Of a stretch of DNA of 64,000 bases, positions 14,618-16,192 are shown piece after piece; position 1 is the first letter of the stretch, and each line of letters starts with the position of its first letter. The DNA comes from Desulfobacteraceae bacterium (lineage in GTDB: Bacteria > Desulfobacterota > Desulfobacteria > Desulfobacterales > Desulfobacteraceae), in NCBI GenBank assembly GCA_024226935.1, contig JAAELK010000120.1, positions 62,001 through 126,000 on the forward strand. Direction: 5' to 3'. Position numbers and translations under genes: made by a program. A model generated the notes under the pieces. It saw only the letters and a program-made list of their open reading frames with translations, made no database searches and was not told the origin of the DNA.

Positions 14618-14727
14618 TGTCCAAAATCAAATTTTTAAAAAGGATAACTGTCTTAAATATCGATGTTTTGTGCTTTAAATACCTGAACTATGTATGTAAT
14701 ATGCTTTTTTAAAAAAGTCAAACTATT

Positions 14728-14760
14728 AACATAATTTGTCATAAGATAACAAATTATGTT
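14728..14760. promoter_or_regulatory. 12-bp inverted repeat upstream of pilA, candidate PilR enhancer site
   Basis: AACATAATTTGT and ACAAATTATGTT are perfect inverted arms separated by nine bases. The centre is about 150 bp upstream of the predicted pilA start point, the usual distance for an NtrC-family activator site. It could also be a hairpin in a transcript reading rightward. No known PilR consensus is specific enough to decide. Confidence 0.45.
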
Positions 14761-14849
14761 AGAAATATTCCATAATCCCAAAAGTTGACACCGTTCCAGA
14801 AACCGGATACTGTCAAAAGAATCAATAATTAGTGGCTGACCGAAAACCC

Positions 14850-14975
14850 GTGCTTGGATGAAAGCTTGCCCATATGCAAGGCGGAAGAAAATTTGAAACC
14901 GGAGTGTACTATAGTACATGAGGATTTCAAGTTTTTGCAGCAACGCGGCAGATGGGTGAGTTTTCGTTCAAGCAC
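14850..14975 (+). repeat. 126-bp nested palindrome / structured RNA-like element
   Basis: The 28-base ends pair at 27 of 28 positions: 22 are Watson-Crick and five are G-U pairs that work only in the plus-strand RNA. The inner part also pairs (GAAAATTTGAAACC with GGATTTCAAGTTTTT) and is capped by the 12-base palindrome GTACTATAGTAC at 14906-14917. It ends 41 bp before the VKOR-DsbA gene. It resembles multi-copy palindromic elements of Desulfobacteraceae, but I see only this copy here. Confidence 0.7.
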
Positions 14976-15016
14976 TAATTAATCATAATTTAATTACGGA
15001 CTTCAACCATTCAATC

Positions 15017-16192
15017 ATGTTAATTCAGCACTCTGATAAAATAAAACCTTTTGGGCTGTCCTTTTATTGCAGCTTTCTTGTGATTCTATCTTTTTGCGGG
15101 ATGCTGGTCTCCGGATATTTATCGACATCCCACTACAGAATTTATACAGACCTGGATTATTCAAGTTTTTGCGCCATATCACAGGCCATAAACTGTGATA
15201 CCGTTTCCCAGAGTCCCTATTCCATATTTTGGGGGCTTCCGGTTCCCATCTGGGGAGTCCTTGGATACATTTTGATGTTGGTAAGCATATTTATTTCTTT
15301 TGATATTAAGAAAAAAAAAATAAATAATCTGCCCTTTCTTTTTTTTCTCGGAACAGTTTTCAGTAGTATCAGTATTTTTCTGGCAATCCTTTCCGCAGTT
15401 GAAATTCATTCCTATTGCATAATGTGTATTATAACCTATGGTATCAATTTCATGCTTTTATATACAATCTGGCTGATAAAACGACGCTTTGAAAAAGAAA
15501 GTTGGAAAACTGCCATAATAAATAACATTAAATTCTATCAATACAACAAATACAAAATATTTAAATTCTATTCACCATTAATTGTTTTCACAATCATGAT
15601 AATGATTTTTATACCCGACTATTGGAATCTAACTTACACTAATCATGGTACAAAGACACTGAAAACGGGAATTACCATGGACGGATCCCCATGGATAGGT
15701 GCTAAAAATCCGGAGTTGACCATCACGGAATATACGGACTACATGTGCTTTCAGTGCAAAAAAATGCATTTTTTTTTAAAAAATTTAGTTGCCCTGCATC
15801 CCGATAAAATCAAACTGATCCATAAACATTTCCCCATGGATCAAAAATTTAATCCCACCATAAAAGAAAATTTGCATCCCGGTTCCGGAACCCTTGCTTT
15901 GATTGCCATCTATGCTGCCAAAAAAAATAAATTCTGGGAGGTTAATGATTTTTTATACCATTATGATATGAGCAAGGGAGCAATATATCTTCGCCAGATC
16001 GCCCAGGAATCCAATCTTGATCTTGCTGCATTACAAACAGGTATCCGTGATCCAAAGATAAAACAAAAGTTAGAAAAAGATATTTTATCAGGTTTAAAAA
16101 AAGGTATCAGTGGAACCCCCTCCTATATTATCAACAATAAAGTTTATGCAGGTCAAATTCCGCCTGACATACTCAATTTAATCCGGAAATGA
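15017..16192 (+). CDS. VKOR - DsbA-like thioredoxin fusion (disulfide-forming membrane protein)
   Basis: 391 residues. An N-terminal vitamin K epoxide reductase domain has four to five helices, a periplasmic loop pair Cys52/Cys60, the SPYSIFWGLPVPIWG segment and the quinone-side CIMC at 134-137. A fifth helix near 190-205 leads to a periplasmic DsbA/DsbG-type thioredoxin domain (about 225-391) with active site CFQC at 244-247 and the cis-proline motif SGTPSYII. VKOR passes electrons from the thioredoxin partner to quinone, so this one protein can both introduce disulfides and be re-oxidised. Divergence from pilA, whose product has exactly two cysteines, suggests a role in pilin or PilY1 folding (inference). 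Confidence 0.9.
   Translation: MLIQHSDKIKPFGLSFYCSFLVILSFCGMLVSGYLSTSHYRIYTDLDYSSFCAISQAINCDTVSQSPYSIFWGLPVPIWGVLGYILMLVSIFISFDIKKKKINNLPFLFFLGTVFSSISIFLAILSAVEIHSYCIMCIITYGINFMLLYTIWLIKRRFEKESWKTAIINNIKFYQYNKYKIFKFYSPLIVFTIMIMIFIPDYWNLTYTNHGTKTLKTGITMDGSPWIGAKNPELTITEYTDYMCFQCKKMHFFLKNLVALHPDKIKLIHKHFPMDQKFNPTIKENLHPGSGTLALIAIYAAKKNKFWEVNDFLYHYDMSKGAIYLRQIAQESNLDLAALQTGIRDPKIKQKLEKDILSGLKKGISGTPSYIINNKVYAGQIPPDILNLIRK

Follow-up and report, generated by a model that had tools for sequence, protein, structure and literature searches.

A long hairpin upstream of a putative VKOR-DsbA gene in a Desulfobacteraceae genome raises two questions: what kind of element it is, and why its pairing appears to be preserved in only one of the two strands. 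The DNA analyzed here (the window) is a stretch of 64,000 nucleotides of contig JAAELK010000120.1, and all positions refer to it. A first-pass annotation, made from the letters alone, had placed the hairpin at 14850-14975, had attributed its one-sided pairing to selection on a plus-strand RNA and had offered a leader RNA or a mobile palindromic unit as possible identities.

Boundaries, parts and fold of the window copy

Reading of the sequence confirmed the basic geometry of the hairpin. Its 28-base ends (14850-14877 and 14948-14975) form 27 pairs, of which 22 are Watson-Crick and 5 G-U, with a mismatch at the remaining position; a perfect 12-base palindrome (GTACTATAGTAC) forms the tip, and 41 bases separate the hairpin from the next open reading frame, the putative VKOR-DsbA gene that starts at 15017. 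The extent originally given is real but incomplete, since the unit begins 18 bases earlier at 14832 and has TAATTA on both sides. When copies were aligned, the whole element was found to measure 144 bp, from 14832 (GTGGCTGACC) to 14975 (TTCAAGCAC), bounded by the two identical sixmers; this length leaves no room for a transposase gene. An 18-bp left TIR is followed by a second TIR-like sequence, which forms the outer 5' arm, then by the core and by a 3' arm that ends in the right TIR. The TIRs are 16-18 bp long (GTGNNTGAMCGAAAAC). The individual parts are as follows:

14826..14831, no strand: left target-site duplication TAATTA, identical to 14976-14981; 6/6 identical flanks in 35 of 73 full copies
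14832..14849, plus: left TIR GTGGCTGACCGAAAACCC, the start of the copies; agrees with the termini of ISNCY elements from genomes G021 and G022
14850..14873, plus: outer 5' arm, second TIR-like copy, from the fold; five wobble-making transitions relative to the right end
14866..14959, plus: match to R2, the core model of the superfamily (E 1.3e-21, 79.8 bits); no second match anywhere in the window at E 10 or below
14877..14883, plus: conserved core motif CAAGGCG (inner bulges, 5' side), with little or no variation in 38 lineages
14887..14900, plus: inner stem, 5' arm of the predicted fold; covarying helix 3
14904..14919, plus: tip hairpin around GTACTATAGTAC, with the compensatory tip-stem variants UGUAC/GUACA, CGUAC/GUACG and CAUAC/GUAUG
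14922..14936, plus: inner stem, 3' arm of the predicted fold with one bulged base; covariation
14941..14946, plus: conserved core motif CAACGC on the 3' side of the inner bulges, its CAACG near-invariant or invariant in 38 lineages
14952..14975, plus: outer 3' arm, its end (14960-14975, GTTTTCGTTCAAGCAC) being the right TIR; 52 right ends in the genome versus 0 for the control
14976..14981, no strand: right target-site duplication TAATTA, identical to the left sixmer

The plus strand of the window hairpin has a predicted folding energy of -63.0 kcal/mol (z -10.35) and the minus strand one of -36.7 kcal/mol (z -5.47); in both cases none of 200 shuffles folded as well. Compared with the reverse complement of the right end, the second TIR-like copy carries five transitions, each of which preserves a G-U pair in the plus strand. 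Five wobbles at six positions of a single copy are weak evidence (7/64 = 0.11 one-sided), and therefore the strand claim was tested on relatives.

When the window was searched with Rfam 15, only tRNA was found. At the element itself there were three matches up to E 10, all of them below about half of the gathering score, and 20 distant loci gave no Rfam 15 match. An SRP-like RNA was rejected as a candidate, as no Rfam match at the element supported it. A separate 16-nt inverted repeat (14727-14761, 94% complementary, 3-nt gap) lies between the pilin-like frame and the element.

Dispersed copies and a candidate transposase

The suggestion of a mobile palindromic unit was borne out by dozens of scattered copies, by target duplications and by an insertion sequence that shares the ends and the target of the element. 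Copies were counted genome-wide and in related species, as the first-pass annotation had proposed. The genome that carries the window (a draft of 590 contigs) gave 40 scored matches among 80 candidates, some of them partial. Its end sites numbered 43 left and 52 right versus 0 for the control patterns, and the TIR pattern occurred at 121 sites versus 19 for the reversed control. DNA-level matches were present in 12 of 58 genomes of relatives (own genome included), and occurrence was patchy, with no match in 4 of 5 genomes of the same genus. With the whole-element model R1 (E at most 1e-4), relatives were also found in 165 of 389 genomes sampled from the class, and with the core model R2 (E at most 1e-5) in 176 of 395 sampled from the phylum; in both searches the filters were stricter and larger groups were sampled evenly, and the E-values are rough. 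As off-phylum control, 100 kb of E. coli yielded one partial match (22.5 bits, E 7e-4), which is weaker than the 1e-5 threshold. An exact right-end pattern retrieved at least 109 stretches, 80 of which were used; they gave 72 distinct copies (58 full, 54 with a recognisable core), and some of the records are genomes already contained in the DNA-level sample of relatives and in the class sample. Among the right-end matches listed, the named carriers were mostly Desulfobacula and Desulfobacter records, with Desulfobacter vibrioformis DSM 8776 among them.

Perfect 6-bp duplications flanked 35 of 73 full copies from the own and related genomes (mean 6.8, maximum 18 in 10,000 shuffles) and 38 of 58 separately picked full copies (mean 7.1, maximum 15 in 5,000 shuffles). 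Most of them read TANNTA, and the target is a palindromic YTANNTAR (51 sites); no motif extending beyond it was found among these sites.

The copies vary in structure. A 158-bp subfamily (L021, L023, L025-L033, genome G000) has about 14 extra bases in the inner 3' arm, where CCCGATTCTATAATTTGGC replaces a short stretch. Six copies of G021 (L097, L104, L112, L113, L117, L118) have an outer 5' arm enlarged by an additional block resembling GGCTCGAAGAGGAGCTATGCTCACAAA. Miniature forms of about 46 bp (L071, L072, L074, L075, L076, G000) have lost the core and kept both ends, and 11 copies of G000 (L078-L088) consist of the right part only versus few left-only ones (L069, L073). A second family (L119-L131, genomes G034 and G022) has the same TIRs, differs in its stems (GGAAATTTTGTCGA) and possesses a core that is related (AAGGCGGAC, AACCGGAG, CCAACGAAG). 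Copy L121 has been invaded at about 515-580 by a different, GC-rich palindrome (GGGAGCGCAGGCGTCCCGCC...). At L207 (G021, contig 2), two TIR-like ends (TAGTGGTCGAACGAAAAC) stand in direct orientation 4.5 kb apart on a small replicon.

For a candidate helper, the ends of the element were informative. In G021 (two contigs), about 100 of 120 sites were listed, and among these one pair of matching ends lay 1.84 kb apart. The pair encloses an 1840-bp insertion sequence bounded by the TIRs of the element and, outside them, by two TAATTA sixmers; its transposase belongs to the ISNCY family (NF033593), the gene being broken into three frames. Genome G022 has an intact NF033593 frame of 504 amino acids (527 bits) between matching TIRs; its right flank reads TANNTA and, as the contig begins within the left flank, the duplication can be checked in G021 only. 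Since the same ends bound an ISNCY insertion sequence in two relatives, the element is most likely a MITE moved in trans by that transposase, as judged from the matching ends and target. The DDE enzyme would bind both ends, cut the element and insert it at TANNTA sites. We take the ISNCY group with these ends to be ISDol1-like. Passages of PMC8147514 name an ISDol1 subfamily. The own genome contains no intact ISNCY transposase in its draft assembly, where one fragment of 33.7 bits was the only match, and four of eight genomes searched with NF033593 had no match, all four outside the family. The helper is thus absent, lost or unassembled in the window's own assembly.

A different route of spread would be retrotransposition of a plus-strand RNA, which would make the element a bacterial counterpart of SINEs. 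A conserved plus-strand fold would suit such a route, and so would the excess of right-end-only over left-only copies. However, the TIRs match those of a DDE insertion sequence, and at the left junctions of truncated copies the best duplications were two 5/6 matches by eye. We rejected retrotransposition on the lack of a perfect duplication at the broken end of truncated copies and regard it as very improbable.

Conservation of the plus-strand fold across lineages

Preservation of plus-strand pairing, as opposed to DNA symmetry, was supported across lineages. The more specific attribution to RNA was not, since G-U pairs could equally serve a folded single-stranded DNA. In 52 copies chosen for their DNA similarity, both partners had changed in 22 of 50 pairs (mean 8.3 in shuffled and 6-11 in slid controls). 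In the alignment of these copies, which share ancestry, 95.5% of the cells pair, and 319 G-U cells stand against 34 A-C cells. A covariance model, another of the checks proposed, was built; it found relatives in other families of the order. Covariation was strong. For the core, 24 of 31 pairs show double changes in 38 lineages, with a covariation score of 0.616 (0.211 when shuffled, at most 0.177 when slid). The outer stems of these superfamily relatives are unrelated in sequence, and the core motifs CAAGGCG and CAACG are kept, with little or no variation, across the 38 lineages.

The strand question was addressed by comparing arm with arm, a procedure that treats both strands alike, with one copy per genome. 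For the outer stems, 30 genomes of 22 other families gave 53 G-U versus 2 A-C (genomes 27 to 0, 3 ties), and 30 genomes of the own family gave 100 versus 2 (genomes 29 to 0, 1 tie). For the inner stems, the corresponding G-U and A-C counts were 14 to 2 in the other families and 13 to 0 in the own family. It can be seen that the plus fold was stronger than the minus fold in 59 of 60 genomes. These fold and arm comparisons draw on loci from 30 of 32 genomes that had been picked because they matched, and the lineages from other families had been found with the structure model. Such a model could favour G-U pairs, and therefore the count was repeated on the copies fetched by exact right-end sequence. 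Here, we found 172 G-U versus 6 A-C in 54 copies (52 copies to 0), in a sample that leaves out 18 of 72 distinct copies without a recognisable core, whose 3' arm is fixed by the pattern and whose members share ancestry. Two single genomes behaved similarly: G322, where the stems differ copy by copy, gave 46 G-U versus 3 A-C in 20 copies, and G053 gave 24 versus 1 in 19 copies. A U-G pair 7 or 8 bases outside the core recurs in 17 and 15 of about 29 other-family genomes, respectively; with many wobbles at this one conserved place, the lineages count as only partly independent.

Palindromic structure is inherent in MITEs and their ends, and correction of one arm by the other can mimic compensatory change. 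A plain DNA palindrome, whose arms are kept alike by template switching or gene conversion and of which neither single strand is used, might therefore be put forward. But such correction yields Watson-Crick pairs and would erase wobbles, whereas the wobbles observed are one-sided and fixed in position; moreover, the motifs around the inner bulges are conserved as well. We consider this explanation improbable. A mutation bias as the origin of the wobble excess was rejected on the pair states private to one copy, which showed none (11 G-U versus 13 A-C). States shared by 2-4 copies gave 5 versus 7 and those shared by at least 5 copies 11 versus 1; when private variants were compared with all shared ones, the wobble contrast was not significant (Fisher p 0.24). 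This pattern, in which single copies decay without visible wobble bias and lasting variants respect the fold, fits selection on spreading copies, not on each host site.

Genome G053 carries the core between other ends (GATGGTCTCGTAAAAAG and GACGGTTTCGTAAAAAG; 19 of 20 stretches aligned). The layout is unchanged (left TIR, TIR-like arm, core, right TIR), and no NF033593 match was found in this genome. Sixmer duplications (AAGGTT twice, AATCTT, AATATT, AAAGTT, AAAAAT, ATTCTT, AATTTT) were perfect, as judged by eye, in 8 of 14 copies with a left flank. In the simplest reading of G053, at least two transposon families carry one core; alternatively, there is a single family whose ends have drifted. 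Extending the former, we tentatively propose, at somewhat less than even probability, that a structured module found through much of the phylum rides different transposon families, its ends being of the ISNCY kind and its target TANNTA in genomes of the Desulfobacter type versus GAYGGTYTCGTAAAAAG ends and other sixmer duplications in G053, and that its plus-strand fold helps it to spread. If true, this module would be a nucleic-acid parasite that changes transposases.

Neighboring genes and known systems

The window copy lies between a divergent pilin-like frame and the putative VKOR-DsbA frame (both named from reading of the translation), and it does not abut a stop codon. A leader RNA of the VKOR-DsbA gene, proposed as a possible identity in the first-pass annotation, was rejected as the main reason for the element's existence, since the copies adjoin many different genes in every arrangement. 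An effect on this particular gene is possible but would be incidental.

Many copies sit exactly on natural stop codons. For copies with at least 5/6 duplications and an abutting open reading frame of at least 300 nt, we compared the stop of the empty site with that of the filled site, and the frame ended at the same base with or without the element in 25 of 25 cases. Gene-end insertions may be tolerated because the duplication restores the stop. Among the G322 copies (L243-L262), whose outer stems differ within one genome, the stop codon frequently lies in the right end itself (TAGAAG).

Such positions invite the view that the host retains the element as a cis-acting RNA, either a leader or a 3'-UTR, for control of neighboring genes through an ERIC-like effect on mRNA. 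The intact frames agree with this view, as does the frequency with which natural stops are touched: of the 136 copies in the first sample, 80 had a frame of at least 300 nt ending at their right end and 24 had one ending at their left end, and in G322 the figures were 16 of 18 versus 2 of 19. However, this orientation bias was gone in the separately picked sample (right 20 of 52, left 15 of 57, p 0.50) and in G053 (right 1 of 19, left 4 of 14). Wherever the bias is present, the adjoining gene reads into the minus strand, whose fold is the weaker one. The absence of wobble bias among private changes also speaks against host-site control, and so does the intergenic region of the window, with 4 promoter-like sites versus 2.2 (sd 1.5) in shuffles and no terminators. 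We consider cis-regulation unlikely. The orientation bias is lineage-dependent, and what we retain is that insertions often lie exactly at natural stops and leave the frame unchanged.

Integron attC sites likewise combine stop-codon adjacency with a one-strand hairpin, and the element might resemble them in being recombined by an integrase from a folded bottom strand. However, paired RYYYAAC/GTTRRRY boxes were present in 0 of 60 lineages (shuffled mean 0.2), no close tandem arrays occurred among the places listed, and 6-bp duplications are present. On the missing boxes an attC site was rejected, and we regard it as extremely improbable.

Taken together, scattered copies, TIRs, 6-bp TANNTA duplications and conservation of the fold are observed, and we consider it likely that the element is a 144-bp MITE, moved in trans by an ISNCY transposase, whose hairpin retains a plus-strand fold that aids the element rather than regulation of neighboring genes. 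Between its ends, the plus-strand fold of the long hairpin has been maintained through compensatory changes and one-sided wobbles, and the hairpin core is common to a superfamily that extends through much of the phylum. We are least sure of the last step, in which the folded plus strand, as RNA or as single-stranded DNA, may aid spread or tolerance. In general, small mobile repeats are viewed as passive debris that has palindromic ends. Here the stem sequence is exchanged but the fold of one strand persists in many families, which suggests that RNA or DNA in single-stranded form is of importance to a MITE of the DDE type. Whether structured repeats spread via an RNA or a single-strand fold thus becomes a testable question, and with the core model and a likely helper family an experiment on the fold is feasible.

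We found no report of such repeats in these bacteria in the open-licence PMC literature. REP/BIME elements and attC sites are palindromic, have a folded single strand and lie at gene ends. The element shares these features with both but differs from them in its 6-bp duplications and in the lack of attC boxes, and membership in the REP/RAYT class (5' tetranucleotide, 20-40 nt unit, RAYT transposase) is unlikely from its size, TIRs and duplications. With the ISNCY insertion sequences of the ISDol1 group (NF033593) it has the TIRs in common, together with the TAATTA duplication in G021 and the TANNTA right flank in G022; unlike them, it codes for no transposase, and its hairpin core was not seen in the IS ends inspected. 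Bacterial MITEs with RNA-folding potential described in portions of PMC2229807 and PMC3049150 include ERIC/IRU, Correia (NEMIS), RUP, BOX and YPAL, and for RUP a helper IS is proposed there. According to these portions, such MITEs and the present element have in common a length below 200 bp, TIRs, target duplications, a long hairpin, an intergenic location and many copies. One-strand wobble conservation over many lineages was measured here for the element, and the same portions of the two papers contain no such strand test. The element differs from ERIC/IRU, Correia, RUP, BOX and YPAL in its 6-bp TANNTA target, in its likely ISNCY helper and in a core that is conserved across many families on differing outer stems.
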